Source: Adlercreutzia hattorii (lineage in GTDB: Bacteria; Actinomycetota; Coriobacteriia; Coriobacteriales; Eggerthellaceae). From it: a stretch of DNA of 64,000 nucleotides. The number at the start of each line of letters is the position of its first letter. Positions within the stretch are counted from its first letter, which is position 1. The stretch spans positions 2,279,001-2,343,000 of the forward strand of contig NZ_AP022829.1 of assembly GCF_011405655.1 (NCBI RefSeq). The letters are read 5' to 3'. The notes under the pieces were generated by a model. The model was not told the origin of the DNA. It was given only the letters and a program-made list of their open reading frames with translations, and ran no database searches. This document shows, piece by piece, positions 16,308 through 59,875 of this stretch. Made by a program: the position numbers and the translations under genes.

Positions 16308-16415
16308 AAATCTGCACTTATCAGCGTCTGGAAGGCTCCTACAGTCAATTATTATATTGTTCTACGTTAATTTCGACGGCTTTTTTCAATCCAGGACGCT
16401 GATAAGTGCAGATTT
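16308..16415. repeat. 108-bp element bounded by 21-bp perfect inverted repeats
   Basis: AAATCTGCACTTATCAGCGT(C) at 16308-16328 is repeated in perfect inverse at 16395-16415. It encloses 66 bp that are AT-rich. As RNA it would be a long hairpin; as DNA it has the look of a MITE-like or invertible unit. No gene lies in it, and the surrounding 16227-16307 and 16416-16602 hold nothing convincing. Confidence 0.8.
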
Positions 16416-41333: not shown

Positions 41334-41380
41334 CGAAGAAGCGATGCGTCCGTCAGGAAAGATTCAGGGAGAGCAGCACC

Positions 41381-41542
41381 AAGAATTTCGAGTTGTTAGA
41401 CATCCAACGCGCTCGCAGGTGATTGCCTGCTTCCATCTTGTCTTCTCATATATCGTATTTTATTACTTTTCTTACACATTTTGTTCTGCCACAGTTTTTG
41501 AGCGAACCATCGCGCGTACCTAAAGTCTAACAACTCGAAAAA
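41381..41542. repeat. Inverted-end element, copy A
   Basis: AAGAATTTCGAGTTGTTAGA at 41381-41400 is followed by C, and GTCTAACAACTCGAAAA at 41525-41541 is its inverse over 16 bp. The ends enclose about 123 bp that are AT-rich with no gene. The same ends recur at 51001-51134 and 56410-56558. Nothing else is seen in 41334-41636. Confidence 0.85.
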
Positions 41543-41636
41543 ACAGCCCGAATCCGACGGCAAGCTTTTCCGAGAAGGCCTTCGTTCCCGATTCGCACGG
41601 TTAATTCACGTTGAAATCGCGCCGCTTTTGCGTCGG

Positions 41637-42590
41637 CTACAGCAACACCTTCACGCCGAAGTAGGCGAGCACCACCAAACCCACGATGATGCGGTAGACG
41701 CCGAACGCCGTGAAGTCGTTCTTCTTGATGTAGCCCATGAGGAACTTGATGGAGATCACCGACACCACGAATGCCGTCACGATGCCCACCACGAGCACGG
41801 CGATCTCGGTGGCCGTCATGGCCAGACCCACGGCCATCAGATACTTGATGAGCTTCAGCACGCCCCAGCCGAACATGACGGGAATCGCGAGAAAGAACGT
41901 GAACTCCGCCGCCGCCGTGCGCGAGCAGCCGCAGAGCATGCCGCCGATGATGGTGGAGCCCGAGCGCGACGTGCCGGGGATGATGGCGAGCATTTGGAAG
42001 CAGCCGATCTTCAGCGACGTCTTCCAGTCGATCTCGTCCACGGTGCGCACGCGGAACAGGGCCATCTCGGCGTCGTCGCCATCGTCGCCCGGACCCACCT
42101 CGGGCACGGGACGCGCATGGGCGCCGCGGGGACGCCGGGGGGCGCGACTGGCCAGATAGGCTGCCTCGCGCCGACGGTTGCGACGCTCCAGCAGGATGAA
42201 CACGACGCCGTAGACGATAAGGGCGATGGCCACCGTCCACGCGTTGTAGAAGTACTCGTTGAAGAAGTCGTCCAGCGTAAGTCCGATGGCCGCCGCCGGG
42301 ATGCAGCCGATGGCCACCATGCCCCACAGCCGCCACGTGCCGCGCTTCTCGGCCGACGTCTTCTTCGGCGAGAACGGGTTCAGCTTATGGAAGTACAGGA
42401 TGAGCACGGCCATGATGGCGCCCAGTTGGATGACCACTAAGAACAGCTCCAGGAACTCCGCCGACACGTTCAGCTTCACGAACTCGTCCACGAGAATCAT
42501 GTGGCCCGTGGAAGAGATGGGCAGCCATTCGGTGATGCCCTCCACGACGCCGATGAAGAACGCCTTCAGAACTTCGATGAACATGTCCAC
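41637..42590 (-). CDS. uppP: Undecaprenyl-diphosphatase
   Basis: The 317-residue membrane enzyme recycles undecaprenyl pyrophosphate to the lipid carrier used for peptidoglycan. Both family motifs are present: GVVEGITEWLPISSTGHM near residues 14-31 and IPGTSRSGSTI near 210-220. A GTG at 42590 is chosen because GGAGG lies 8 nt upstream; an internal ATG at 42584 is the alternative. A hydrophilic loop of about 45 residues rich in Arg and Asp near 155-200 is longer than in most UppP proteins. Confidence 0.95.
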   Translation of the reverse strand: MDMFIEVLKAFFIGVVEGITEWLPISSTGHMILVDEFVKLNVSAEFLELFLVVIQLGAIMAVLILYFHKLNPFSPKKTSAEKRGTWRLWGMVAIGCIPAAAIGLTLDDFFNEYFYNAWTVAIALIVYGVVFILLERRNRRREAAYLASRAPRRPRGAHARPVPEVGPGDDGDDAEMALFRVRTVDEIDWKTSLKIGCFQMLAIIPGTSRSGSTIIGGMLCGCSRTAAAEFTFFLAIPVMFGWGVLKLIKYLMAVGLAMTATEIAVLVVGIVTAFVVSVISIKFLMGYIKKNDFTAFGVYRIIVGLVVLAYFGVKVLL

Positions 42591-42811
42591 AGAAACTGCC
42601 TCCGTACGATTTGCTTGTCTGTCGGCCCAAGCGGCGAGCGGCAACCCAGGCCAGAGCGCGCCGCCAACACGAGGAAAAGCGCACAAGGGGCACTCCCTCT
42701 TTCGAGCCTCGGAAATGCTATCACGGCACTGCGAATCGTCAGGATTCCTACGGAGAAAGTCCACGTTTGTCACTTTGGTCTACCGAGGCGCCGGCCAGCC
42801 CAGCGTTCGCA

Positions 42812-42840
42812 GCGCGCGACACAACCCGTCGTGTCGCGCG
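42812..42840. other. GC-rich stem-loop in a 640-bp gene-free gap
   Basis: CGCGCGACAC (42813-42822) pairs with GTGTCGCGCG (42831-42840). No T-tract follows on either strand. The rest of 42591-43227 contains no gene I can support, only the leaders of the divergent uppP and HTH-protein genes. Confidence 0.4.
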
Positions 42841-43227
42841 TGCCGCCCATTCCACCATGGCTTGTGCACGTAGCCGATTTCATGTCAGATACAACATAGC
42901 AAGTAGGTTCGTTTTCCCTGCTCAAATCCTCTTTTCGAAAGCAACGATGCGCCAACGAACACCAAGCATCGTGGTAATAAAACTATCGAAGATCGCACTT
43001 TTACCAACGATGTCAGTTCCATTGGGGTATCATGGGACACCCGCGAGAGACCGGAAGCGAAATGTTTTTCCGGCCCGGCAAACGCAGCTTTCAACTCAAC
43101 AGGCCTCGCCCTCTTCCTGGCGCTCAGGCGCACTGCGGCACAACCCGCGGCGCACGGACGTCCTTGCCTCATCACGGATGCGCCCACCAACCGAAGGGTC
43201 TCCCCCTTCCGACAAAAGGATACTATC

Positions 43228-44049
43228 ATGCTGAAAGCTGCCCACCCCGGCGGTCTGATCCCGCCCATCCTCCATCCCTCCCCGCTCAACCGCGAAAACA
43301 CCGGCGAGCGCACCGACCGGACGGGCGCGCTCCTGTTCGCAGGCGCCGTGGCTTCCTTCGGACTAGCTCTCGTGCTCATCGGCGCTGCCGTTTCGTTCGC
43401 CGCCGGAGCGCCAGCGCCGGCGAACCTCGACCAGTCGACCCTCGTGTTCGGATCCTTGGCAGCGGCCTGCGCCCTGGCGGCACTCGGCATGATGCTGGCC
43501 CTGCGGGAGAGAAGCCTGCGCACGCAGCAAATGCGCCGCGTCACCCGTGCCGAGCAGATCCAGGGAGAGCTGGACAGTCTGGGCCTCACGCCCAAGGAGA
43601 TGCCCATTGCCAAGCTCATCCTGCAGCATCAAAGCTATGCGACCATCGCCGCCGAGCGGCACCTGGCCGTGCGCACGGTGCAATTCCATGCCACGAATAT
43701 CTTCCGGAAGGCCTATGTCAGCAATCGGCGCGATTTCGAGCGTGTCATCCTGGCCGACGAGCGCAACGACGACCGGAGCGACGGCGCCCGTCGCGACACT
43801 CCCTGCTGCCGCAGCAACCAAACGACACCGCCCGACGGCCGAGGCGCCGCGCGCCCCGGATGCGCCCTCCGCGGCCAAAATACCTGCTTGCCCGGGGGCG
43901 GCTCCGACAACCCGGCGACGGGCCTCCCCGCGCAAAACCCTGGCAGCGAGCAAGAGCGCGGAGATCCCGACCGTCCCGCTGGCAGCCCCACGACCCTCCG
44001 CAGCAGGGCTGCCCTGCGCCACGGCAGGCAGGAGGGAGGACGGCCATAG
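43228..44049 (+). CDS. Membrane-anchored LuxR-type HTH protein with low-complexity tail
   Basis: The 273-residue protein has two hydrophobic segments (about 35-60 and 72-92). A LuxR-type HTH follows (LGLTPKEMPIAKLILQHQSYATIAAERHLAVRTVQFHATNIFRKA, about 118-162). The last 95 residues are Arg, Gly, Pro and Ser-rich without visible fold. Such two-span HTH proteins occur in Coriobacteriia; the target is unknown. AAAGGA lies 7 nt before the ATG. The tail could result from a frameshift or from drift in GC-rich sequence. Confidence 0.75.
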   Translation: MLKAAHPGGLIPPILHPSPLNRENTGERTDRTGALLFAGAVASFGLALVLIGAAVSFAAGAPAPANLDQSTLVFGSLAAACALAALGMMLALRERSLRTQQMRRVTRAEQIQGELDSLGLTPKEMPIAKLILQHQSYATIAAERHLAVRTVQFHATNIFRKAYVSNRRDFERVILADERNDDRSDGARRDTPCCRSNQTTPPDGRGAARPGCALRGQNTCLPGGGSDNPATGLPAQNPGSEQERGDPDRPAGSPTTLRSRAALRHGRQEGGRP

Positions 44050-44188
44050 CCAGCGCCGTTCGCTAGCGCGCCCGCCCATCTGGTAGGCGGCGCCGGCACT
44101 CGCAGGCGCGTCCGCGAGAGGTCATCATTGGGGAAACAGACGCCCGCGCGCCGCCTTCGTCGTGGTGCCCGCGTGCTACCGTGAACCC

Positions 44189-45415
44189 ATGAGCAACTTC
44201 GCCGACATAGCGTGCCCTGCATCGCCGCAACTCGAAAGCGCAACGACCGCCTCCCCTGACGGCCGCCCGAAAGACTCGGCAACATTTGCGGGAAGCCGCT
44301 CTCGAAAGACGCCCGACGTCCCCGAAGGCGAGATGCACGGCCACGGCTCCGGCGGCCCCAAGGACGTCTGGACGCACAACGTGGAAGCCACCGCGTCCCT
44401 CCTCATCGCCTTCGGCACCCTCATCACCACCTGCAGCGCCCAGGGCCTTTTCACCCCCTCGACCGCCAGTCGGTGGATTCTCGAGTACCTCGTTCCCTTC
44501 CAGCTGCCGATTTTCTACTTCTGCCTGGGCTTTCTCTACCAGCGCTACCGCACGACGCGCACCCCTCGCGCCTGGGGCCAGAACCTCCGCCGCGAGCTGG
44601 CGCTCATGGGCATCCCCTTCGCGGCGTTCACCGTGCTCGTGCTGCTCACGAACTCGGCCGTCGGCGCGAAGCCGCCTCTGTCGGTCGCCGATCTCCTCCG
44701 CGCGCTCTTCATCGAGCCCGTCATTCCCGTCGGCTACTTCTATACCTGCCTCATCATTTACGCCATCACCCCCACCGTGAAGAGCCGCCGCAACGCCAGC
44801 GGCCTCCTGTTCGCCGCCGTCGCAGCGAAAGCGGCCATCGTGGCGCTCGCTTCGCTGCCCGCCACCGCCGAGATGGCCGCGCGCCTCCCCTACGCCGTCA
44901 CCTCCGTGGCCGAGAACTGGATCTGGGTCGCCGGCGGCATGGCCATGGCGCTCTACCGGGGCCTGCCCCTCGCGCGCGGATCCGAGAAGGCCTGGGCCCT
45001 CGGCGCCCTGTGGGTGGCCACCAGCGTGATCGCCTTCTACGCCGGCTGGACCGGCGAGACGTCCCACGCCGCTCTGGACGCGCTCGGCGTGCTGTGGGCG
45101 ACCTCCCTGTTCTCCACCGTGTTCCGCAGCGGGCGGCAGAACCGCTTCTACGGCTTCGTGACCCGCTACACCATGGCCATCTGGCTCTTCCACGGCATCT
45201 GCCTCGCCCTGTACTTCCATCTTTGGAAGGCGGCCGGCATCTCCGTCACGGCAGCACCGTGGATGGCGGCCGCGGGGGCGGCGCTCGTCTGCTACGGCAT
45301 GCCGGTGCTGATCATGGCCGCCCTTTCGCGCCTTGGGAAGGCCGGCATCATCGTGTATCCGGCCCGCTATCTGCCGCCCGCGCCGGCCACCATGCTCTGG
45401 AAGACGCCGCACTAA
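44189..45415 (+). CDS. Acyltransferase-3 family membrane protein
   Basis: The product of about 408 residues has a disordered hydrophilic N-terminus (to about residue 55) followed by about ten membrane spans. TRYTMAIWLFHGICLALYFHLW near the end is typical of acyltransferase-3 proteins that O-acylate cell-surface sugars or lipids. The start is uncertain: ATG at 44189 is preferred, 44162 is possible, and neither has a clear ribosome binding site. It precedes the methyltransferase gene, which probably has its own promoter. Confidence 0.8.
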   Translation: MSNFADIACPASPQLESATTASPDGRPKDSATFAGSRSRKTPDVPEGEMHGHGSGGPKDVWTHNVEATASLLIAFGTLITTCSAQGLFTPSTASRWILEYLVPFQLPIFYFCLGFLYQRYRTTRTPRAWGQNLRRELALMGIPFAAFTVLVLLTNSAVGAKPPLSVADLLRALFIEPVIPVGYFYTCLIIYAITPTVKSRRNASGLLFAAVAAKAAIVALASLPATAEMAARLPYAVTSVAENWIWVAGGMAMALYRGLPLARGSEKAWALGALWVATSVIAFYAGWTGETSHAALDALGVLWATSLFSTVFRSGRQNRFYGFVTRYTMAIWLFHGICLALYFHLWKAAGISVTAAPWMAAAGAALVCYGMPVLIMAALSRLGKAGIIVYPARYLPPAPATMLWKTPH

Positions 45416-45430
45416 CGTATACTAGGGCCC

Positions 45431-46318
45431 ATGAACAAGTCGCAAACATCTTTCCTGGCGGGGCAGGACCCGTATCTGGCGCCGTTCTCGTCCATGACCG
45501 ACGGGCAGCTGCGCGACCCCAAGCAGCTCGTGGGCCTGGCCCGTGCCATCGACCCGGAGGGCGCGCCGGAGCGCTTGGCGTCGGGCCTGTTCGTCGCTGA
45601 GTCCGTGAACGTCATCGACCGCGCCCTTAATGCCGGGTGCGTCCCCTTCGCCGTGCTCACCGACCGGCGCTGGCTCGCCGCCTCCGAAGCGCTCTTGGAA
45701 AAGGTGCGCGCGGCTAATCCGGCCGCCCCCGTGGCCGTGGTCTCCTCGGAGGAGATGCGCTCCATCACCGGCTACGAGATGACCCGCGGGCCCTTGGCCG
45801 CCTTTCACCGGCCGCCCGAGCCCGACCTGGCCGCCCTGCTTACTGGCGCCCACCGCGTCGCCGTGCTGGAGGACGTCACGAACTACACCAACATCGGGGC
45901 CATCTTCCGCAGCGCCGCCGCCCTAAACATCGATGCGGTGCTGCTCACGCCGGCCTGCCACGACCCGCTGTTTCGCCGCGCGTCGCGCGTTTCCATGGGT
46001 ACGGTGTTCCAAGTGCCCTGGGCCCGCATCGGGCACGCGCGCGATTGGGCGGCCGAAGGCGTGGCGCGCCTGCGCGAGGCCGGCTTTGTCACAGCCGCCC
46101 TGGCCCTGGCCGACGACGCGCTTTCCATCGCCGATACGCGCCTGAAGGCGGCCGACAAGCTGGCCCTCGTACTGGGCACGGAAGGCGACGGCCTGGCCGC
46201 CTCCACCATCGCCGCCTGCGACTGGACCGTGCGCATCCCCATGCACCACGGGGTCGATTCCCTGAACGTCGCCGCCGCCAGCGCCGTCGCCTTCTGGGAA
46301 ACCCGCCGGGAAGGCTAG
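45431..46318 (+). CDS. TrmH/SpoU-family RNA 2'-O-methyltransferase
   Basis: The 295-residue SPOUT methyltransferase has the three SpoU motifs: NYTNIGAIFRSA near 156-167, LGTEGDG near 248-254, and IPMHHGVDSLNVAAASAVAFW near 270-290. It would methylate a ribose in rRNA or tRNA using S-adenosylmethionine; the target is unknown. TATACT lies exactly 7 nt before the ATG with no ribosome binding site, so the mRNA may be leaderless. The last codons are included in a 34-bp tandem duplication. Confidence 0.9.
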   Translation: MNKSQTSFLAGQDPYLAPFSSMTDGQLRDPKQLVGLARAIDPEGAPERLASGLFVAESVNVIDRALNAGCVPFAVLTDRRWLAASEALLEKVRAANPAAPVAVVSSEEMRSITGYEMTRGPLAAFHRPPEPDLAALLTGAHRVAVLEDVTNYTNIGAIFRSAAALNIDAVLLTPACHDPLFRRASRVSMGTVFQVPWARIGHARDWAAEGVARLREAGFVTAALALADDALSIADTRLKAADKLALVLGTEGDGLAASTIAACDWTVRIPMHHGVDSLNVAAASAVAFWETRREG

Positions 46319-46377
46319 CGTCGCGCAGCCACATCCCGTAGCTGGGAAGGCTAGCGTCGCGCAGCCACATCCCGTAG
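46308..46377. repeat. Tandem duplication of 34 bp across the methyltransferase stop codon
   Basis: Identical 34-bp units (starting GGGAAGGCTAGCGTCGCGCA) lie at 46308-46341 and 46344-46377, a 36-bp period. The first contains the TAG stop; the second contains a copy of the same last codons. Confidence 0.9.
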
Positions 46378-46445
46378 GGGCTGACCTTGGTCAGCCCTCA
46401 TCAGGCAAGGTTATCCCTCTTGTGAGGGGCGACTGAGGTCGCCCC
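46374..46445. repeat. REP-like palindrome pair
   Basis: A GTAGGGGCTGACC/GGTCAGCCC hairpin (46374-46397) is followed by a GGGGCGAC/GTCGCCCC hairpin (46426-46445) in opposite orientation. Related palindromes occur at 46913-46936 and 59737-59837. The pair lies between convergent genes and may also end transcripts. Confidence 0.75.
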
Positions 46446-46472
46446 CTGCGGATGGAGCGGAAGCTCGGCCCC

Positions 46473-47891
46473 CTACGAGCCGGTCGGAAGTCCCATGGCG
46501 TTCGCGATCGCCATCGTCACGCCCACGGCTATCACGCCCACGACAACCAGCGCGATGCCCAAGATTCGCAAACGAGCTCCCTGCAGAAGGCGAAGCCTCG
46601 GAGCCGCCCGACGTAAAACGCGGACGTCGGTCAAAATGAAAAGAAAGCCCGTGAAGAACGGAATACCGAACGTCCAATACTGAAAGGCGATCAGCCAGAA
46701 CGGCCAGGTGGCGTAACGTTCGTCGGGCGTGAACGGCATTGCGATGAGAACTGCCATGAACAGCAGCCACACCACCAAGAGGGCGACATCGATCACGAGC
46801 CCTGCCGTCTCACCGGAGGAGAGCGTCGAGAAAGCACGCCTTACCCGAGAAACGACTACGCCATGCGGTCTGTCATCGATCGGAGCTGCGGCACTCACCG
46901 CCGTCGCGGCCCAGGGGCGACCAAGGTCGCCCCCTACGGGAGCAGCCTGGCCCGCAGGGGCAGCCCGGCCTACGGGGGCAGCCTGGCCCGCGGGGGCGGC
47001 CCAATCCGCAGGGGAAACCCGACCCGCGCCGGCGACCTGGGTCACAACGACACCCCGGTCTGCAGGAGAAGCCCCGGCTGGGGCGAGCGCCGCGAGGAAC
47101 GCCGCCTTCAGGTCGCGCACCGTCTGGAAGCGGGCCGCCGGATCAAAGGCGCAGGCGCGCTGGAGCACGGGGCGCAGCGCGAAAGGCACTTCCGGCCCCG
47201 CGAACCCCGCCGCAGCCACCGACGGCGACGGATCGCGCTCGGCCAGCAGGTAGTAGAGCAGCATTCCCAGCGCGTACACGTCGCTGCGCTCGTCGGTCTG
47301 CCCGTAGCCGAACTGCTCGGGCGGCGCGTAGCAGCGCGTGCCGAAATGAGCCGTATCCCCCGCAGCCCCCTCGCGAAAGGCCCGGGCAATGCCGAAGTCG
47401 ATGATCGTGAGACCCGCATCGCTCACCACGATGTTCGTTGGCTTCAAATCGCGATGGATCACAGGCGGCGAGAACTGCTCGTGCAATTCCATCACCCCGT
47501 CGCAAAGGAGTGGAAACCACTGCGCCGCCAGGGCGACCGATCCGTCGCGTTCGTACACCTCGTCCCGCAGCGTGCGTCCCTGGATGTATTCCATGACCAC
47601 CACCAGCTCGTTGCCAGTGGTATGAACATCGTAGATGCGCGGCAGATGCCGGAAACGCCGCCCGGCGCGCTGCGCTCGGAACAAGTGGCCGTAGGCATCC
47701 CCCATGGCCGCATCAACCGCGATGCGCTTGCGGACGAACGGCCCGAGCTCCGCCGCATTGGCCCCCACGAAGTACACCACTTCGGTCGTCTCGTGGGGCG
47801 CCGTCTTCAACACCTCATCGACGCGATAGCAATCATCGCGGGCAAGGGCGGCGAGGTATGCGGCAAGCGGGTCGTTTTCCATAGATGCCAT
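46473..47891 (-). CDS. Serine/threonine protein kinase with membrane tail
   Basis: The 472-residue kinase has catalytic loop HRDLKPTN (near 148-155), DFG (near 169) and CYAPPEQFG (near 190). A Gly-rich loop is not obvious, and the ATP-binding Lys may lie in VRKRIAV. After the kinase domain comes an Ala/Pro/Gly-rich repeated linker (AAPAGQ, AAPVGR units, about 300-345) and then two to three membrane spans. Part of the linker is coded by a REP-like palindrome. It starts 11 bp after an HTH gene, so the two probably act together. ATG 47891 or 47882. Confidence 0.88.
   Translation of the reverse strand: MASMENDPLAAYLAALARDDCYRVDEVLKTAPHETTEVVYFVGANAAELGPFVRKRIAVDAAMGDAYGHLFRAQRAGRRFRHLPRIYDVHTTGNELVVVMEYIQGRTLRDEVYERDGSVALAAQWFPLLCDGVMELHEQFSPPVIHRDLKPTNIVVSDAGLTIIDFGIARAFREGAAGDTAHFGTRCYAPPEQFGYGQTDERSDVYALGMLLYYLLAERDPSPSVAAAGFAGPEVPFALRPVLQRACAFDPAARFQTVRDLKAAFLAALAPAGASPADRGVVVTQVAGAGRVSPADWAAPAGQAAPVGRAAPAGQAAPVGGDLGRPWAATAVSAAAPIDDRPHGVVVSRVRRAFSTLSSGETAGLVIDVALLVVWLLFMAVLIAMPFTPDERYATWPFWLIAFQYWTFGIPFFTGFLFILTDVRVLRRAAPRLRLLQGARLRILGIALVVVGVIAVGVTMAIANAMGLPTGS
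46913..46936. repeat. REP-like palindrome inside the kinase reading frame
   Basis: AGGGGCGACC/GGTCGCCCCC with TAC lies in frame and is translated as VGGDLGRPW on the minus strand. It matches the intergenic REP family. Short GC-rich repeats (GGGGCAGCCTGGCCCGC type) follow to about 47040. Confidence 0.7.
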
Positions 47892-47901
47892 GGTACCAAA
47901 G

Positions 47902-48345
47902 TTAGCTGATGGTCGCCTCGCCGAACCGGTAAAGCTCCTCCTCGGTTTTCTGCAGCGTGTAGCCATGGCTGATGGCGAAGATGACGATGGCATCCCGCCG
48001 ATTCTTGCAGTACAGCTCGTTGGCGCCTCCCGCCTGCAGAAGGCGGTTCGCCTCGCGCAGCGTGCATCCCATGGCGAAGGCGATCTTCAGCAAGTTGTCC
48101 CGGGAGGCGCGGCGGGCGCCGGTGAATATCTGGTAGCCGAAGGTCTCGTTGATGCCCGCCTCGCGCACCACGGCCGCACGCTTCAGGCCCTTCTCCGCCA
48201 GAAGCGCGTTCAGGTACTCCGCCAGACTACGCTCGCCCACCTCGCGCCGCTTGATGAACGCCCGCGGATCCGGCGCATCCAAGAGCTCGGCCAGCATGTC
48301 CTCTGTCAGCGGTTCCTCCACGCGCTTCTTTCTCCTTCGACCCAT
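47902..48345 (-). CDS. Helix-turn-helix (XRE-like) protein, partner of the kinase
   Basis: The 147-residue protein has a basic N-terminus (GRRRKKR) and a central HTH (LAEYLNALLAEKGLKRAAVVREAGINETFGYQIFTGARRASRDNLLKIAFAMG). It ends in a helical C-terminal part predicted to bind a partner. It is 11 bp upstream of the kinase gene on the same strand. HTH/kinase pairs of this kind occur in Firmicutes and Coriobacteriia. It may be phosphorylated by the kinase; this is inference. Confidence 0.82.
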   Translation of the reverse strand: MGRRRKKRVEEPLTEDMLAELLDAPDPRAFIKRREVGERSLAEYLNALLAEKGLKRAAVVREAGINETFGYQIFTGARRASRDNLLKIAFAMGCTLREANRLLQAGGANELYCKNRRDAIVIFAISHGYTLQKTEEELYRFGEATIS

Positions 48346-48422
48346 ATCACGAAGCCCCTATTGTAGCGCCCCGAGCGCCCGCCTTCGAAGACGGGCGCCC
48401 GAGACATGCGCCATCGGGCACG

Positions 48423-49142
48423 CTAGCTCAACGAGAACGTCTGCTCGGCGATGAGCTCGTCGCTGAAGCTGAAAAGCTCTTCCACCTCGACGGTAAGATC
48501 GCTCATGTCGGCGAGCTCGTAAGCCGACTCGTAGGTGATGGAGGAGCCAGACTTCACCTCATTCATCGACTTGCCGGACTCCTCGGCATCGGCGACCACA
48601 GCCAGCTCGAGCTCGGTTCCGTTCTGGAAAGCTTTGGCGTGAACCGCCACTGCGGGGCTGGTCGCCTCGTCGGAGTTGTTCGTGAAGGTGTAGGTCACCA
48701 CGGCAGCTGGATTTCCCTGATAGTCCTCGGTCACGCGGCAGTCGTCGATGGTGACGCCGTAAGCGGCCTGCGTCGCCTCGCTCTGCTCGGCCGCCTGGGG
48801 CTCGGCCGCAGATCCGGAATCTCCGGCCGCTACGCCTTGCGCCGTCGCCGTATCAAGCCCGCTCTCCTCCATGGCCTGGTCGAGGGCGGCGCTGAAGGCG
48901 CTCTGCATCACGAGCACAAGGATGAAGGCGATCACAGACAGCACGAGGCCGGCGACGCCTAAGCCCTTACCGCTCTTTTTCCCTTTCGAAATGCCCACCA
49001 ACCCGACGATGGCGAAGACGATGCCGAGGATGGCCAAAAGGAAGGAGAGGTTGTTGATGATCGGCAGAATCGAAGTGACCAGTGCCACGATTCCCAATAC
49101 GAGAGAAGCCACGGCCATGGCCGAGCGAGGTTGCGTTTCCAT
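48423..49142 (-). CDS. DUF4190/DUF5067-type membrane protein
   Basis: From the ATG at 49142 (GAAGGG 8 nt upstream) the product has 239 residues. Two glycine-rich membrane spans (about 10-40 and 55-78, with LGIVALVTSILPIINNLSFLLAILGIVFAIVGLVGIS) match DUF4190. A linker follows and then an extracellular beta domain with VTYTFTNNSDEATSPAV and FQNGTEL, as in DUF5067. Such proteins are common surface proteins of anaerobes; function unknown. Confidence 0.78.
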   Translation of the reverse strand: METQPRSAMAVASLVLGIVALVTSILPIINNLSFLLAILGIVFAIVGLVGISKGKKSGKGLGVAGLVLSVIAFILVLVMQSAFSAALDQAMEESGLDTATAQGVAAGDSGSAAEPQAAEQSEATQAAYGVTIDDCRVTEDYQGNPAAVVTYTFTNNSDEATSPAVAVHAKAFQNGTELELAVVADAEESGKSMNEVKSGSSITYESAYELADMSDLTVEVEELFSFSDELIAEQTFSLS

Positions 49143-49251
49143 AGATGATTCCCTTCTTCTAAACGCGCTATTCCTAACGGACAAGGAAGAAGGGTATCCG
49201 TTCTCGTTAACCGTTTCATTAGCTGCCAGCTAAGGCAACGGCAATTTTTCC

Positions 49252-50085
49252 CTAGCTCAGATCGACCTTGGCGCGCACGAGGTAGGCGGACAAGGCGACG
49301 CCGCCCGCGGCCACGGCAAGGTTCACCACCGTCTGCATGACGGACACCGTGCCGAGCATGAACGATGCCGTGCCCGTGTCGCCCATCATGGCCAGCACGC
49401 CAACGATAGAGAACAGAAGAGAGATCACCCAGCCAATTCCCATATACAGCGCCACGGCCGCGGCCACCTTATGCCGCCGCGCCCACCATGCGCCCAGCGT
49501 CAGCGAGAGGAACGCCAGCCCCACGGTGTAGGCGGCGGACACGAGCGCGTTCGCCACGCCTATGACCGACGAGGCCACACCACCGCTGCCCGTCAGCGCC
49601 GACCAACCGCCCAAAAGCGACAGCACCACCGACACCATGTCCCCATCGCCGTCGGAGATCGCGAGCACGGCCAATGAGGCGAGCGCGCAGGCCGCAAGCG
49701 TAAACACCGCCGCCAGCAGGAAGGCGGCGCAGAATTTCGCCGTCACCAGCGCGCCCGTGCGCACCGGCAGCGTGAGCGTGAGATAGCCCTCGTCGGTGAA
49801 CATCGTGCGATAGAAGCGCATGGCGATGAACACGTAGACCGCCACGAGGCTGGCCCACACAAGAAAGGCGCAGAACAGCGCCGCCATCACGAGCACCACG
49901 GTCAGGTTGGAAGCGGCCGACGCCTCGTTGACATAACGGGAGGCGAATCCCGCCGCGCGGCTCACGGCGTCGGTGGCCTCGATGCAGCCGATGCCCACCA
50001 CGCCAGCGACGACCATAATGGCCAGCATGATGGCCGCAGGCTTCACAAGCGCCCGCATTTCCTGGGCGAAGAGCTTTCCTAGCAT
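49252..50085 (-). CDS. ABC-2-type transporter permease
   Basis: The 277-residue protein has six membrane spans and no solute-binding partner. It overlaps the ATPase gene by 7 bp, with AGAGGAG inside the latter as its ribosome binding site. The pair would export a small molecule, peptide or lipid; the substrate is unknown. The sequence YRTMFTDEGYLTLTLPVRTGALV near residue 95 is typical of bacterial ABC-2 exporters. Confidence 0.85.
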   Translation of the reverse strand: MLGKLFAQEMRALVKPAAIMLAIMVVAGVVGIGCIEATDAVSRAAGFASRYVNEASAASNLTVVLVMAALFCAFLVWASLVAVYVFIAMRFYRTMFTDEGYLTLTLPVRTGALVTAKFCAAFLLAAVFTLAACALASLAVLAISDGDGDMVSVVLSLLGGWSALTGSGGVASSVIGVANALVSAAYTVGLAFLSLTLGAWWARRHKVAAAVALYMGIGWVISLLFSIVGVLAMMGDTGTASFMLGTVSVMQTVVNLAVAAGGVALSAYLVRAKVDLS

Positions 50086-50804
50086 CGGAACTCCTCTCGG
50101 AAGAACGCGTCCAGCGTCGTGCCCTTCCCCTGGGTCACGTAGGCCACGGGCGCGTGCAGAAGCATCTGGCCATAGCGCAGCAGGATGAAGTCGTCCAGAA
50201 ACGCCTCCACGTCGCGCACGAGGTGGGTGGAAAGGATGATGGACGACTGCGGCCGATACGCGCGAATAACCGTTTGCAGGATGTAATCGCGGGCCGCCGG
50301 ATCCACGCCGCCGATGGGCTCGTCCAAAAGATACAGCGCCGCGTGACGGGCCATGACGAGCGTGAGCTGCACCTTCTCAACGGTGCCCTTGGAAAGCGCC
50401 GCGCACGGGGCGCCCTCGGGAACGCCGAGCCGAGCGAGCATGTCCCGGGCCAAGGCGGCGTCGAAGTCCTCGTAGAAGTCGGCGAAGAAGGCGATCATCT
50501 CGCGCACGCGCATGGAACGGGAGAAGTAGGGCCGCTCGGGCAGGTAGGAGACGAGCGCCTTCGATTCCGGGCCCACCTCATAGCCCGCCACGCGAATGTC
50601 GCCCGCCGTCGGATGGGCCACGCCGGCGATCATCTTCAGCAGCGTGGTCTTGCCCGAGCCGTTCGGGCCGAGCAGCCCTACGATGCGGCCGGCGGCCAAG
50701 CTGACAGTAAAGCGGTCGAGCGCCACCGTGGCGCCATAGCGCTTAGTGAGGTCGCAGCACTCGAGCAAGGGCGGCGGCGCGACTTCGGGGACAAAGGCAT
50801 CCAC
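50079..50804 (-). CDS. ABC transporter ATP-binding protein
   Basis: The 241-residue ATPase has Walker A GPNGSGKTT (near 44-52), a signature region in which LSKGTVEKVQL replaces LSGGQ, and Walker B LYLLDEPIGGVD. This variant signature is typical of YtrB/CcmA-like exporters. A GTG at 50804 is chosen since GAGGAGG lies 6 nt upstream. It is coupled to the permease gene. Confidence 0.9.
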   Translation of the reverse strand: MDAFVPEVAPPPLLECCDLTKRYGATVALDRFTVSLAAGRIVGLLGPNGSGKTTLLKMIAGVAHPTAGDIRVAGYEVGPESKALVSYLPERPYFSRSMRVREMIAFFADFYEDFDAALARDMLARLGVPEGAPCAALSKGTVEKVQLTLVMARHAALYLLDEPIGGVDPAARDYILQTVIRAYRPQSSIILSTHLVRDVEAFLDDFILLRYGQMLLHAPVAYVTQGKGTTLDAFFREEFRC

Positions 50805-51000
50805 GGGAAGCCTCCTCATCGTTCGGAATCACTGGCTCCATCCTAGCACGGACGCCAACGGCCAAGCGGGAACCCCATCGAATGAGCGAATCGCTCCCGC
50901 CGCATAGGCGCATGGACCTTCCCACCGCATGGACGCATGGACGAATCAGTCATGCAGCGCGTTTCCGAAGGCATCGACAATGCACCCTCTTGTTTTGAGA

Positions 51001-51134
51001 AAGAATTTCGAGTTGTTAGAGTTCGCGCGCAGAAAACCAGCCGCTCCAAATCAGCAATTCAGGCAAAACCGCCATCAAAATGGCGAGATCGCCCTCTCAT
51101 TCGCTCGACTAAGTCTAACAACTCGAAATTCTTG
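51001..51134. repeat. Inverted-end element, copy B
   Basis: AAGAATTTCGAGTTGTTAGA at 51001-51020 has its perfect 20-bp inverse ending at 51133. The ends enclose about 93 bp unrelated to copies A and C. The remaining gap (50805-51000 and 51135-51198) holds no gene. Confidence 0.88.
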
Positions 51135-51198
51135 CCAAAAAGAGGGAGGCGCTTTGCTCCAAAAGCGAAAACCCTGGAAGCGCGCCGTCCCGCCCCCG

Positions 51199-52239
51199 TT
51201 AAACCCACTCGAAGGCCCAGAGGTTGGCACATTGGGCGAGCACGCGCTGAACGTCCCACGTGCGGGCGCTGTTGGCGGGGCTGTTGGGGTCGTGGATGAC
51301 CAGCTCGCCGTTGTCGGCCACGCCGGCCACCACGAGAAAGTGTCCCGTGTCCGTGAAGTCGCCGGGGCGCACGCTGCAGATGACGGGATGCCCCTCAGCG
51401 AGCTCCGCCGCAAGACGCCCCGCGTCCGCCGGCACCTCATGGGAGGAAAGACCCAGCTCAGCCGCGCCGTCGGTCATGAGGCGCCAGGCGGTGAGTCCCC
51501 CCTCCACATAGCCGCCGGCCTCGCTGAAGGCGGCCATGGCGGCGGGATCCTTGTCGGTCTTCCCCGTCAGCGCGATGTAGACCATGGCCAGGCTCGTCGG
51601 CCCGCAGCCGGCCTCCCGCACCGTGGTACCGGCATAGGGCGCATCGCGGTACTGGGGATCGGTCTGGTAGAGGAAGGGCAGATGGCCGCCGCGCCACTCG
51701 TCACGCGGGGTGCTGGCAGGATCGTCCGCCTCGTCCGCGCCCGCGGCGGCCGGAGCGGTATCCGCCGTGGGCGAGGCGATGCCCGGTCCCGTAAGCCCCA
51801 GCCCTTCGACGTACAGGTTCGCCATTTGGAAGATAGCGACCAGCACGAAAATGGAGAGCGCCGCCACGCTCAGCACCGACCACAGATGCCAGCGCCGTCG
51901 CCCAATGCGGCGGCCACGCGCGGCGCGGCCCGTGCGGGCCAGACCGCCCAGCATGGCCCTCACCACGCCCGGCACGGCAGCCGAAGCCGCGAACGCCCGC
52001 GCCGACCCGCGAGACGGCCGCCGCTGCGGCGATGCACCCTGGGCGGTTTTCGAACCCGCGCTACGAGCCGACCGACTCCCCGCGCCCTGCGGCCGCGCCC
52101 AAGCGTCCCGCCCGTAGGGATTGGGGGCAACCCTCGAAGCACCCGAAGAGCCCGAAGCGCCCGCCCTTCCGGCGCAGCTTAAGGGCGCGTCCCCTTCGTA
52201 CAAGTTTCCCTCGTCGAAACGGTAGGCAGCAGTGTCCAT
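51199..52239 (-). CDS. Membrane-anchored C39-like cysteine peptidase
   Basis: From the ATG at 52239 (AAGGAGAG upstream) the product has 346 residues: a basic, low-complexity cytoplasmic part (1 to about 125), one membrane span (about 130-155) and an extracellular papain-like domain. The catalytic Cys is in REAGCGPTSLAMVY, the His in DTGHFLVVAGV and the Asp in IHDPNSP, as in the peptidase C39-like-2 family. It may cut cell-wall or surface peptides. It is divergent from a VanRS-like two-component system, which may control it. Confidence 0.87.
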   Translation of the reverse strand: MDTAAYRFDEGNLYEGDAPLSCAGRAGASGSSGASRVAPNPYGRDAWARPQGAGSRSARSAGSKTAQGASPQRRPSRGSARAFAASAAVPGVVRAMLGGLARTGRAARGRRIGRRRWHLWSVLSVAALSIFVLVAIFQMANLYVEGLGLTGPGIASPTADTAPAAAGADEADDPASTPRDEWRGGHLPFLYQTDPQYRDAPYAGTTVREAGCGPTSLAMVYIALTGKTDKDPAAMAAFSEAGGYVEGGLTAWRLMTDGAAELGLSSHEVPADAGRLAAELAEGHPVICSVRPGDFTDTGHFLVVAGVADNGELVIHDPNSPANSARTWDVQRVLAQCANLWAFEWV

Positions 52240-52389
52240 AAATCTCTCCTTACGTTGCACCTCCACCTTACCGACGAGCCGGCTTACGCGTCCCATAGCG
52301 AAATCTGACATTTCCGGCAGGGCACCTTAACTTTTCCTGAAGCTGTCACGGGATGGCACGCCTGTTGGCAAAACCCGGGGCGAATCGCG

Positions 52390-52402
52390 TACAATAGCCC
52401 TT
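52390..52402 (+). promoter_or_regulatory. Probable leaderless promoter of the response regulator gene
   Basis: TACAAT at 52390-52395 is followed by exactly 7 nt and the ATG at 52403, with no ribosome binding site. Transcription would start at or next to the start codon. Confidence 0.5.
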
Positions 52403-53122
52403 ATGGAAAAACGCGCTCACATACTGGTGGTGGACGACGAGCAGGCCATCGCCGATCTGGTTGTCAACCTGCTCGTGGCCGAGGGCATGGACGCGCTGGC
52501 CTGCTACAGCGGACAGGCGGCCCTCGACATGCTCGCCCGCACGCCGTTCGACCTGGCCATCGTGGATATCATGATGCCGGGCATCGACGGCTTCGAGCTG
52601 TGCGTTCGCATGCGCCAGATGCGGGACATTCCCGTCATCTTCCTCTCGGCGAAGGACGAGGAGGCCGACCAAGTCGTCGGCTTCACCTTGGGCGCCGAGG
52701 ACTACGTCACCAAGCCCTTCCGGCCCCGCGAGCTGGTGGCCCGCGTGAAGGCGCGCCTGCGCCGACGCCAAGCAGCGCCCCAGGCTTCCTCCACCCTGCT
52801 TTCCGCCGGCGCCATCGAGGTGGACCTGCGCACGCATCTGGCCACGCTCCACGGCGAGCCTTTGCACCTCACCCCCAAGGAGTTCGCCATTCTGGCGATT
52901 CTGGCCCAGTCGGTCGGCTCACCGGTCTCGGCGGCCGATCTGTTCGAAGGGGCCTGGCACGAGCGCTTCGACGACGCGGCGGCCAACACGGTCATGGTGC
53001 ACATCCGCCGCCTACGCAAGAAGCTCGCCGATATCGACGCTTCCACGACGTTCATCGAAACCGCTTGGGGCGTCGGCTACAAGCTGCGCGGCGCACCCGG
53101 CGACACCGGCCATGGCGCTTAA
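52403..53122 (+). CDS. OmpR/VanR-family response regulator
   Basis: The 239-residue protein has a receiver domain with acidic pair DDE near residues 12-14, phospho-acceptor Asp in DLAIVDIMMPG (near 54) and a conserved Lys in YVTKPFRP (near 103). A winged-helix output follows (LTPKEFAILAIL, then VMVHIRRLRKKL). It overlaps the sensor kinase gene by 11 bp. The close VanR-like layout and the neighbouring peptidase suggest a cell-envelope stress response. Confidence 0.93.
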   Translation: MEKRAHILVVDDEQAIADLVVNLLVAEGMDALACYSGQAALDMLARTPFDLAIVDIMMPGIDGFELCVRMRQMRDIPVIFLSAKDEEADQVVGFTLGAEDYVTKPFRPRELVARVKARLRRRQAAPQASSTLLSAGAIEVDLRTHLATLHGEPLHLTPKEFAILAILAQSVGSPVSAADLFEGAWHERFDDAAANTVMVHIRRLRKKLADIDASTTFIETAWGVGYKLRGAPGDTGHGA

Positions 53123-55307
53123 AAGCGAACAGGCCCGCGTCCTGCGCCGGCGCGTGCTCGGCGGCCTCATTCGCAACCTTTTGCTGTTTAGCGGGGCCTT
53201 CGCTCTGGCCTGCCTGGCGATCGAGACCTTCATGGTGCCCTCAATCGCGAACTGGGTGGCCGACTCGACCTCGTCTTGGCGCACCCTGAACTCCTCCGAG
53301 CAGTTCCAGCAGATCCTCACCGACCAGGGGCTGCTCGACGATGCCAACCTCTTCGACCTCTGGGTCAACGAGGCCGTCGAGGGCGGCTACACCAACGATG
53401 CAGGCACTATCACCGAGATCCAAGGCGAAGTGAACGAGATGGAAGACGCCCTGGCGGAGTATGCGAGCATGATGGCCGACTCGCCCGAGAACGCCGAGGC
53501 TGCCGCGGCCTACGCCAAGGAACGGGCTGAGAAGCTCGGGGCGGATGTGGCCGTCGCCTCGGGCACCAACGCCGCGGCCATCGGCGACGCGAGCACCTTC
53601 ATCGACGACGCGACCGCCCTCGATGCCGAGACCGACAGCGCCCCGGCCGACAAGACCGCCTGGGCCGTTCCCCTCCTTCCCTATCAGACCATTCTGACCG
53701 CCGAGGCCATTCCCGCTGACGACGCGAGCGCCGCCCAAGCCATAGCGGCCCTGCGCGTGTCGGCGTCCCTGCAGGAGCTGGGGCTCTCGCTGCCCGAGGC
53801 CCAGACGTTCATGCCGCCGGAGACCACGGTGGATGCGGCCACGCGAATCCTCGTCAGCGCCGCCGTCCTGGGCTATGATCAGCCGACGCTGAACGACCTT
53901 CTGCAAAGCGCCTTTCGTCAATCCCAAGAGCAGGCCTACAGCGCCTGGCTCGACCTGACCTCCGCCGAGGAGGCGCGGGCGCTGGGCGTCTCCGACGAGA
54001 ACCCGGTCTGGCAAATCCAGTACGGCGAGGACGGCGTCTACCGCATGCGCGACGTCGCCACCTACACGTTCGTCAAGTCGTTCAAGCTCCCGCTGGCCCT
54101 GCTCGTCTTCGTGGCCGGCTGGCTCGCCATCGCCCTGAGAGCCCTGAACCGGTCGCTGCGCTACTTCGACGAGCTGTCCGGGGCCGTGGGGCGCCTGCTC
54201 GCCGACAAGGACGCCCCCATCGAGCTGCCGGCCGACTTGTCCATCGCCCGCAATGAGCTGGCGGTCATCCGCTCGCAGTCGCTGGCCGACGAGCGCGCCG
54301 CTCACGCCGCCGAGCAGCGCAAGAACGAGCTGGTGGCCTATCTGGCCCACGACATCCGCACGCCGCTCACCTCGGTGCTCGGCTACCTGGATCTGCTGCG
54401 CGAGACGACCGATCTGCCCCGGGAGACCCTGCGCAAGTACGCCGACATCGCCTATTCGAAGGCCGAGCGCTTGGAAAGCCTCATCAACGAGTTCTTCGAG
54501 ATCACCCGCTACAACCTGTCGGCCATTCCCATCGAGCGGGAGACCGTGGGGGTGCGCCTGTTCTGCCAGCAGGTGGCCGAGGCGTTCTTCCCCGAGGCCG
54601 CCGCCCGCAACATCCGCATCACCGTGGACGCCGCCGGCGCGGGCCAGTTCTTCATCGATCCGGACAAGCTCGCCCGGGCGCTGGGCAACGTGCTGCGCAA
54701 CGCCGTGGCCTACGCCGACGCGAACTCCGTCATCGCCATCGCCGCCCGCCAGGACGCCCGCACGACCACCATCACCGTGGCCAACCGCGGCCGCGAGATA
54801 TCCGACGCCCATCTGGAGACCATCTTCGAGAAGTTCTACCGGGAAGACGGGGCGCGCTCGTCGAAGAAGGGCGGCGCGGGGCTGGGGCTCGCCATCGCCC
54901 GGGAAATCGTCGTGGCGCATCACGGCGACATCGAGGCGGCGAGCGAGCGGGGCGTCACCGTGTTCACCCTGCGCATACCCACCCAGGGGGAGGAGATTGA
55001 AGGGGCAGCCGCCGCGCCGCGCATCCCGGGCGCGACTGAGGGCGTCCAACGGCCGGTTGCGCCCGTGCCGCCCCGCACCGTGCGACCGGCAAGCACGCGA
55101 GCAACTTCCACGCCGCCTTCCGCAACGACGCGTCGCGGGTCCTCCGCCCGCCCGATTCCACAACGCCCCGTCGGCGAACGGACGCAAGCGCCGCGCCAAG
55201 GTACCTCTCCGTTAAATCCTCGTAACGCTCGCCACGGACAGGTTCCCGCGCGTAAGACGGTACGCGATAATGATGCGACACCCCGGCGGCGCGGCCTGTC
55301 CCGCTAG
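53112..55307 (+). CDS. Sensor histidine kinase (VanS-like) with basic C-terminal extension
   Basis: The 731-residue kinase has one membrane span near residues 18-40, a large external domain to about 320, a second span (about 323-343) and a HAMP-like linker. The HisKA motif ELVAYLAHDIRTPLTSVLGYLDLL (His near 416) precedes the ATPase domain with NVLRNAVAYA and GGAGLGLAIAREI. After about residue 640 there is an unusual Pro, Arg and Thr-rich tail of about 90 residues that VanS proteins lack. Probable target genes are unknown. Confidence 0.9.
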   Translation: MALKSEQARVLRRRVLGGLIRNLLLFSGAFALACLAIETFMVPSIANWVADSTSSWRTLNSSEQFQQILTDQGLLDDANLFDLWVNEAVEGGYTNDAGTITEIQGEVNEMEDALAEYASMMADSPENAEAAAAYAKERAEKLGADVAVASGTNAAAIGDASTFIDDATALDAETDSAPADKTAWAVPLLPYQTILTAEAIPADDASAAQAIAALRVSASLQELGLSLPEAQTFMPPETTVDAATRILVSAAVLGYDQPTLNDLLQSAFRQSQEQAYSAWLDLTSAEEARALGVSDENPVWQIQYGEDGVYRMRDVATYTFVKSFKLPLALLVFVAGWLAIALRALNRSLRYFDELSGAVGRLLADKDAPIELPADLSIARNELAVIRSQSLADERAAHAAEQRKNELVAYLAHDIRTPLTSVLGYLDLLRETTDLPRETLRKYADIAYSKAERLESLINEFFEITRYNLSAIPIERETVGVRLFCQQVAEAFFPEAAARNIRITVDAAGAGQFFIDPDKLARALGNVLRNAVAYADANSVIAIAARQDARTTTITVANRGREISDAHLETIFEKFYREDGARSSKKGGAGLGLAIAREIVVAHHGDIEAASERGVTVFTLRIPTQGEEIEGAAAAPRIPGATEGVQRPVAPVPPRTVRPASTRATSTPPSATTRRGSSARPIPQRPVGERTQAPRQGTSPLNPRNARHGQVPARKTVRDNDATPRRRGLSR

Positions 55308-55378
55308 CTTCAAAACCAAAGCAGGCATCGGCCCCGAAGCACCGCTTTCCTACTCAGCGAACACCCAAGGAGGCACCA

Positions 55379-56368
55379 TTGAACCCCATCCGCATCGGCA
55401 TTCTCGGCTATGGCAACCTCGGCCGCGGCATTGAACTGGCCGTCGCCGCCAACGACGACATGGAATTGGTGGGCGTGTTCACTCGCCGCGACCCGGCCAG
55501 CGTGCACCCGCTCGGCGAGAACGTCGCCGTCTGGCCCGCCACGGAGCTGGCCGCCCATACCGACGACATCGACGTGCTCATGCTCGCCGGCGGCTCGGCC
55601 ACCGACCTGCCCGAGCAGACCCCGGCAGCCGCTGCGCTCTACAACGTGGTCGACTCCTTCGACACCCACGCCAACATCCCGGCGCACTTCGCCGCCGTCG
55701 ACGCGGTGGCCCGCGAGGCGGGGCACGTGGCCGTCATCTCGGTGGGTTGGGATCCGGGCATGTTCTCGGTCTCGCGCGTTTACGCCAACGCCATCATGCC
55801 CAACGGCGCCGACTACACCTTCTGGGGCCGCGGCGTCTCCCAGGGGCACTCCGATGCCATCCGCCGCATTCCCGGCGTGGCCGACGCCCGCCAGTACACG
55901 GTGCCCGTGCCCGAGGCGCTGGATGCCGTGCGCTCCGGCGCCAACCCGGAGCTGACCACGCGCCAGAAGCACACCCGCGAGTGCTTCGTTGTGGCCGAGG
56001 AGGGCGCCGATACGGCCGCCATCGAAAAGGCCATCGTCACGATGCCGAACTACTTCGCCGACTACGACACCACGGTCACCTTCATTTCTCAGGAAGAGCT
56101 CGACCGCGATCACGCCGGCATTCCCCACGGCGGCTCGGTCATCCGCACCGGCACCACGGGTGCCGCCGGCGAGAACACCCATGTGATCGAGTACTCGCTG
56201 AAGCTCGATTCCAACCCGGAGTTCACCGGCAGCGTGCTCGTCGCCTGCGCCCGCGCCTGCTGGCGCATGGCCTGTGCGGGCGAGACGGGCTGCCGTACCA
56301 TCTTCGACATCGCGCCTGCGCTGCTCTCGCCCATGACCCCCGAGGAGCTCCGCGCGAAGATGCTGTAA
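55379..56368 (+). CDS. ddh: meso-Diaminopimelate dehydrogenase
   Basis: The 329-residue enzyme makes meso-diaminopimelate from tetrahydrodipicolinate, ammonia and NADPH in one step, feeding lysine and peptidoglycan synthesis. The sequence is nearly textbook: GILGYGNLGRG (near 7-17), FTRRDP, CGGSATDLPEQTP-like GGSATDLPEQTP, SVGWDPGMFS, and HTRECFVVAEEGAD. A TTG start at 55379 is used, with AAGGAGG 6 nt upstream. It is a single-gene unit followed by repeat copy C. Confidence 0.96.
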   Translation: MNPIRIGILGYGNLGRGIELAVAANDDMELVGVFTRRDPASVHPLGENVAVWPATELAAHTDDIDVLMLAGGSATDLPEQTPAAAALYNVVDSFDTHANIPAHFAAVDAVAREAGHVAVISVGWDPGMFSVSRVYANAIMPNGADYTFWGRGVSQGHSDAIRRIPGVADARQYTVPVPEALDAVRSGANPELTTRQKHTRECFVVAEEGADTAAIEKAIVTMPNYFADYDTTVTFISQEELDRDHAGIPHGGSVIRTGTTGAAGENTHVIEYSLKLDSNPEFTGSVLVACARACWRMACAGETGCRTIFDIAPALLSPMTPEELRAKML

Positions 56369-56409
56369 GAGGTCCTTCCAGCAAATCTTCCTCTCAATTT
56401 GGGGACATA

Positions 56410-56558
56410 TTTTCGAGTTGTTAGACTTCCACATCCTGCAAAGCAAAAGAAAAGGGCTCGACACGAGTCCTTTTCTTGCTTTTCGGCCTCTTTTCAGCCT
56501 GTTTTTCAACCCCAGCTCACCAAGCCGCTCCCAGCCATGTCTAACAAATCGAAATTCT
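56410..56558. repeat. Inverted-end element, copy C
   Basis: TTTTCGAGTTGTTAGAC (56410-56426) and GTCTAACAAATCGAAATTCT (56539-56558) are inverse with one mismatch. The ends enclose about 112 bp unlike copies A and B. The interior contains a short hairpin (AAAAGGGCTCG/CGAGTCCTTTT at 56449-56474). The element sits between convergent ddh and accDA. Confidence 0.8.
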
Positions 56559-56615
56559 GCGACCAGAACGGCAACGAGATTGCTCCGGGCAAAAAAGGAG
56601 CGGCAGAAACCACTC

Positions 56616-59692: not shown

Positions 59693-59736
59693 ACGTTTCT
59701 CCTTGCAACAATCTTTCGATCCTCATCTCGCCTTCC

Positions 59737-59837
59737 GTAGGGGCCGACCTTGGTCGGCCCTCGCTCGCGAGGACGTCGGCGCTTCACGTCAGCCCCATCG
59801 GGCTCCGATCCCAGGGCCGACCAAGGTCGGCCCCTAC
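59737..59837. repeat. REP-like palindrome pair inside the fab operon
   Basis: Hairpins GGGCCGACC/GGTCGGCCC at 59737-59760 (with GTAG in front) and at 59814-59837 (with CTAC behind) are exact 24-bp inverse copies 53 bp apart. They form a BIME-like unit between fabF and fabZ and may influence mRNA decay within the operon. Confidence 0.85.
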
Positions 59838-59875
59838 GGGGATCAACCCACCGAGAAGGCCCCTCGCGGAGCGAC

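Follow-up and report, generated by a model that had tools for sequence, protein, structure and literature searches.

The window, a stretch of 64,000 nucleotides from the genome of Adlercreutzia hattorii, carries three short inverted pairs, here called elements A, B and C (Table 1). All three had been reported in a first-pass annotation of this DNA and all are present, A at 41386-41540, B at 51001-51133 and C at 56411-56554. Their ends match perfectly over 16 bp in A and over 20 bp in B and near-perfectly in C (one mismatch, in the right arm), as described there, and their spans are 155, 123 and 144 bp, respectively.

Table 1. Ends of elements A to C and the probable fourth element of the window
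Feature	Positions	Strand	Description
Element A, left end	41351..41404	+	boxes 1 and 2 plus core; 16-mer core 41386-41401; profile match E 1.0e-6
Element A, right end	41522..41575	-	16-mer core 41525-41540; profile match E 4.1e-10
Element B, left end	50976..51024	+	16-mer core 51006-51021; profile match E 3.4e-9
Element B, right end	51111..51163	-	16-mer core 51113-51128; profile match E 9.9e-11
Element C, left end	56375..56429	+	16-mer core 56411-56426; profile match E 3.3e-11
Element C, right end	56536..56588	-	16-mer core 56539-56554, one mismatch; profile match E 1.9e-7
Probable fourth element, other arm sequence	16308..16415	.	AAATCTGCACTTATCAGCGTC and its inverse, 21 bp perfect; AT-rich interior

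Concerning the neighbouring genes, 28 of 30 flanking ORFs matched Pfam families without a common theme, among them NrfD (twice), ABC transporter (twice), DAPDH, AccA, ThiC and ThiE as well as Hsp90, NAD ligase, CstA, fumarase and malic enzyme. By the ORF calls, the gaps that hold the elements are convergent, divergent and tandem, and a simple promoter or terminator reading was dropped for this reason. At genome positions 1302042-1303564, two elements (L007 and L019) stand around one 438-aa ORF, which has no Pfam or NCBIfam match and a weak third-position GC bias.

A seeded scan for inverted repeats in the window gave elements A and B and two further pairs, at 16308-16415 and 59735-59839, as compared to 0, 0, 0, 1 and 1 pairs in five Markov shuffles of the window. 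Element C is absent from the output because its exact seed is too short. The arms of the 16308-16415 pair are, judged by eye, probably akin to a second arm type of the A. hattorii genome; no centre, as defined below, was recognised in this pair. The pair at 59735-59839 is formed by a REP-like palindrome, CCGTAGGGGCCGACCTTGGTCGGCC, inverted and perfect over 27 bp. It looks quite unlike elements A to C and is, as we presume, reminiscent of RAYT-type REP doublets.

Copies, ends and spans in the A. hattorii genome

The genome-wide search for paired inverse copies that the first-pass annotation had proposed yielded 23 facing inverted pairs of the TTTCGAGTTGTTAGAC end in the single-contig genome of 2,908,404 bases. 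The pairs were put together from matches to a 16-mer (42 places with at most 2 mismatches versus 2 for the reversed control) and to an 18-mer (46 places with at most 3 mismatches versus 3 for the control), and nearly all 16-mer matches are paired. A 58-position end profile, built from 43 of the 44 ends of 22 pairs and recovering its own members by construction, detected 45 ends at E <=0.0122. These are 22 complete pairs and one end of the 23rd, the second end of which comes from the 18-mer pattern; two further profile places are weak (E 0.27 and 0.33).

Across 44 ends, the conserved sequence measures about 55 bp, from about -37 to +19, with little conservation beyond, and is composed of three boxes, an outer one of about YTYCSGRCAATCT, a middle one of TTTNGGGCAA and a core of AATTTCGAGTTGTTAGACTTTG. 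The pairs of ends as first described are thus confirmed; their extent had been drawn too short, since the conservation goes further out, to about position -37. The interiors of the 23 copies do not align, and their longest common words are 17 and 13 bp. A target-site duplication was not detected outside the boxes, where direct repeats of at least 4 bp occur in at most one of 22 copies at any tip position, and end-pattern and profile searches of the A. hattorii genome revealed no larger element with the same ends.

Measured between the outer edges of the 16-mer, the spans are 123 (twice), 133, 134 (three times), 135, 143, 144 (five times), 154 (twice), 155 (three times), 156, 165 (twice), 166 and 178, with an overall range of 123-178 bp. 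They are periodic in steps of about 10.6 bp (resultant length 0.917 at 10.7 bp), and among 20,000 uniform-length random sets not one matched this regularity at any period between 8 and 14. The ends occur, then, neither as single copies nor at random spacing.

Central motif and helical register

The 17-bp common word of the interiors led to a central motif, CGACCTGGGRTTTTGC, for which a seeded motif search reached a likelihood of 90 as compared to 25-45 in six shuffled sets. This centre is a near-dyad ACC-NNN-GGT within CGACCTGGGGTTTTGC. Scored with a matrix built from loci of other genomes, it exceeds the 95% level of shuffled interiors in 9 of the 23 copies (about 1 expected) and the 99% level in 7, counts that are not fully independent, since a consensus seeded by A. 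hattorii and G007 copies had served to find the matrix loci. By the same matrix scoring of interiors, 14 of the 23 copies, elements A, B and C of the window among them, are without a recognisable centre. The interiors had been called unrelated, which is right in part: those of A, B and C do not align with one another, and many copies elsewhere have the central motif in common.

In the nine copies with a centre above the 95% level, the gaps from the centre to the left arm are 45, 45, 55, 45, 67, 56, 56, 44 and 45 (R 0.95-0.96) and those to the right arm 42, 61, 52, 51, 63, 52, 62, 41 and 41 (R 0.92-0.93). The left minus the right gap amounts to 3.56 modulo 10.5 (R 0.91) in 79 elements, i.e. non-redundant loci with an arm score of at least 13, weaker-armed or armless loci being left out, and all rounded residues of this difference fall between 2 and 6. 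At the 879381 locus of G007 the arms are too diverged for gap measurement. The two arms are placed symmetrically with respect to a single fixed point in the centre, and the distances from arm to arm and from arm to centre approximate whole B-DNA turns. Phasing and common symmetry point together suggest a reading of arms and centre from one side, on double-stranded DNA.

Relatives and orthologous loci

Among eight congeners, the A. hattorii pair type is found in G007 only, and a strict pattern for it gave no match in a collection of 84,980 species, which may omit the A. hattorii genome. The centre, with at most one mismatch, is present in 8 of 9 genomes of the genus (A. hattorii included; reversed control 0) and in 100 of 138 Eggerthellaceae genomes, representing 34 of 48 genera, where the control gave 0 or 1 matches per strand and genome among the matches listed. 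Around it stand a second type of arms in the A. hattorii genome, different types in congeners and several types within the single genome G012; some centres stand without arms. Arms are clade-specific, whereas the centre is common to most genomes of the family and to some Corynebacterium. At one orthologous locus of G012 and G095 (L161 and L210), an armless centre lies 4 or 5 bases upstream of a TATAAT-like box.

G012 and G095, two species of another genus, keep the same length series. Among the pairs listed, G012 has spans of 152-153 (19), 162-164 (23), 174 and 176 (44 pairs) and G095 of 151-153 (10) and 162-163 (9) (19 pairs); after an 18-bp frame change these become 133-135, 144-146, 156 and 158 and match the span series of A. 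hattorii.

An exact scan for the centre gave at least 117 stretches, 80 of which were examined for arms. Among the matches listed, arms with a score of at least 11 surround the exact centre at 11 of 15 Eggerthellaceae, 6 of 11 Corynebacterium, 1 of 10 other Coriobacteriia, 1 of 11 other actinobacterial and 0 of 33 non-actinobacterial loci (control positions 4 of 345). The gap test outside the family covered 13 Corynebacterium, Williamsia and Coriobacteriaceae loci. An arm score of 10 was reached by ten of them, and in nine of these ten copies, the Coriobacteriaceae being represented by one genome, the gap residue is 2-4; it is 10 in the remaining copy. Eight exact centre matches lie in viral contigs, and plasmids gave no match to three element DNA queries. 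Tandem centres are seen in Corynebacterium (L302, L297 and L278; C. lipophiloflavum and another), repeating every 85 or 93-94 bp, which is near 8 or 9 DNA turns. Collinsella, Olsenella and Arcanobacterium have a near-common centre-bearing stretch (L326, L328, L329, L332, L288, L317 and L337). In the Collinsella record L326 the centre is located 134 bp upstream of an Abi_2/AbiD gene. An AbiF antitoxin RNA, considered because of this position, was rejected by a weak test: RF03085 gave no match up to E 10 at the Collinsella locus, and six other Abi loci, all non-actinobacterial, have no centre.

For orthologous loci, tblastx was noisy and was used only for pairs with E=0. At a locus read from its sequence as uvrC-like, elements with differing arms are present in A. 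hattorii (G000), G004, G005, G006 and G007; none was seen in G001, G002 and G003, and G008 has a short possible remnant. The elements of G000, G006 and G007 have a TTAGCA variant in common, which speaks for common descent. By hand count their inner distances are 127, 106 and 135, respectively: G000 and G006 differ by 21 bp, which is two turns, and G007 is about 2 bp off phase. The thiC-thiE gap was found in all nine of nine genomes. Here the elements of A. hattorii and G006 have the same length and agree in position and orientation of the centre, while both arms have changed; an element is missing from G007 and G008, and G001-G005 contain a different insert. This insert (L255-L259) measures about 216 bp, contains an inverted repeat starting with TCCGATAGGCACCTGG and is near-identical in G001, G002, G004 and G005. 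A difference of 31 bp, about three turns as counted by eye, separates G000 from G006 at the hsp90 locus. Some orthologous elements hold their geometry while their interiors diverge.

Some copies in G007/G008 and in G012 can be aligned over the whole element; two G012 copies, for example, are 81.7% identical over 164 bp, and two G007 copies 75.7% over 140 bp. This similarity, gain or loss between congeners and the lack of a gene theme argue for a mobile origin, and the orthologs for later retention. Support for mobility is indirect, since neither a target-site duplication nor a larger element with the same ends was found in the A. hattorii genome. The population is probably old, vertically persisting and mobile-element-like, as judged from these patterns.

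A putative assembly site and its alternatives

On balance, we favour the view that the elements are double-stranded DNA assembly sites, consisting of a pair of inverted arms, each about 55 bp long, and often a central near-dyad. Among the options offered in the first-pass annotation, paired binding sites for one protein would fit best, because arm-arm and arm-centre distances are whole DNA turns. One protein or one oligomer would grip both arms, and a conserved factor would bind or bend the centre. If arms and centre are gripped together, all of them would have to lie on one helix face, and the DNA between would be filler. The simplest such machine would be an arm-bound protein pair brought together over the bound or bent centre. 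As a population they would resemble short non-autonomous mobile elements: copies would land in intergenic DNA and be inherited there, with selection acting on arms and phasing, and would now and then invert across the arms. That both arms change in concert may be due either to strand switching from one inverted repeat to the other or to recombination at the arms. The G007 ortholog at the uvrC-like locus, off whole turns, and the 14 copies without recognisable centre speak against this explanation.

Alternatively, the elements might be architectural or regulatory loop sites of the host, at which a host protein with fast-evolving DNA specificity bridges the arms for chromosome organisation or gene separation, so that they would be kept for the host and not be mobile. 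Geometry held at orthologous loci while sequence changes, placement between unrelated genes in every orientation and the lack of target duplication are all consistent with such sites. Nevertheless we regard them as unlikely, in view of centre motifs ranging from 0 (G001) to 52 (G012) per genome, the gain or loss of sites between congeners, the presence of several arm types within a single genome and whole-element paralogs.

The first-pass annotation had also considered an invertible unit. Here a site-specific recombinase would flip the interior, with the centre as recombinational enhancer, so that the elements would act as switches. One clear inversion exists, between two species: the interiors of the orthologs L169 (G012) and L188 (G097) are 81.4% identical when turned over and 33.1% as they stand, with a right flank that is 84.2% identical and a left flank conserved only about 45 bp next to the arm. 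By judgement, the centre orientation differs at 3 of 16 orthologous loci and agrees at 13, while fast switching would give about half in opposite orientation. The spacer points in both directions as well. Within one arm type it is near-identical per element (1.08 mismatches versus 5.24 between elements, n=12; 0 of 5,000 shuffles as low), as would suit a recombinase, and in another there are 1.57 mismatches within versus 4.05 between elements (n=23). The within-pair effect is weak in the A. hattorii arm type (3.74 versus 4.43, P 0.003), and in G095 as many as 10 of 19 pairs (hand count, pairs among those listed) have a 7-bp spacer that is not the same in both arms, so that within-element identity is no strict requirement.

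No tyrosine recombinase could be tied to the elements. Tyrosine recombinase matches number 8 in A. hattorii, 10 in G001, which is without the centre, 3 in G007, 2 in G008, 7 in G012 and 10 in G095, and across ten genomes searched this number does not follow the element number. Two of the three G007 matches are of XerC/XerD strength and one is of a third kind; a third recombinase in the same profile range occurs in 7 of the ten genomes. A dedicated tyrosine recombinase was set aside, as in the A. hattorii genome this third recombinase adjoins genes read as hsdM and hsdS and is therefore probably an hsdS-inverting enzyme. The few G007 matches and the absence of promoter logic further weaken the idea of switches, which we hold to be improbable. 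At L246 (genome 2155000-2164000), a tyrosine recombinase stands by putative hsdS/hsdM, with an IS3-family transposase adjoining.

RNA hairpin ends, the last of the original options, or single-stranded hairpins, with the arms paired as a stem and the centre displayed in the loop, would account for the joint change of both arms in some orthologs and for the arms of C. silvaticum and Williamsia, which lie close to the centre and can fold as a long hairpin, yet they are very improbable, because a 10.6-bp step in total length is unexpected for a single-stranded loop, the arm-centre phase is symmetric, the two outer boxes of the A. hattorii type have no within-pair identity (P 0.81 and 0.23), and Rfam gave no family match in the window or at the element loci scanned (one scan produced weak, sub-threshold matches of microRNA type only).

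Known element kinds have parts of this architecture. REPINs and BIMEs are intergenic doublets with lineage-specific ends that persist by descent; they are associated with RAYT transposases, and their arms are GTAG-headed palindromes. The present elements resemble them in being short and intergenic, in forming inverted doublets around a variable interior, in occurring many times per genome, and in their lineage-specific ends and persistence by descent. They differ in their common centre and helical phasing, and the logo of 44 A. hattorii ends shows no GTAG-headed REP palindrome. MITEs are likewise short, non-coding and intergenic with inverted ends, and the whole-element alignment of some G007/G008 and G012 copies recalls them, but in the A. 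hattorii type the interiors are unalignable, and neither target duplication nor a larger same-ended element was seen. The RIP/RIB elements of Escherichia coli and the Correia elements of Neisseria have inverted arms around a central site for the DNA-bending protein IHF. Inverted arms around a centre are a common trait, with the bending protein a feature of RIP/RIB and Correia; the present elements are set apart by clade-specific arms, a centre common across genera and the phasing rule. Invertons and small invertible promoters also have inverted sites, and one inversion was observed here, but the present elements are mostly fixed in orientation, and neither a tyrosine recombinase nor a promoter could be linked to them.

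The family is real, and its parts and geometry are demonstrated. The first-pass annotation had recognised no named family, and we found no description in the literature searched either: the 13/14-mers of the centre appeared there on neither strand, and work on Eggerthella invertons, Eggerthella intergenic inverted repeats and Corynebacterium repeats held nothing relevant. More tentatively, the elements may represent an undescribed class of actinobacterial DNA element, in which a conserved dyad at the centre and two inverted arms that diverge fast, all on one helical face, would serve a putative protein complex whose arm-reading part changes by lineage along with dozens of sites per genome. Dozens of repeats in some gut actinobacteria would thus belong to a protein-DNA architecture that is invisible to gene annotation. 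The spacing rule would be a signature, legible from sequence, of looping or wrapping geometry, and arms that differ by lineage around a constant centre would offer a natural series for the joint change of DNA-binding specificity and its sites.
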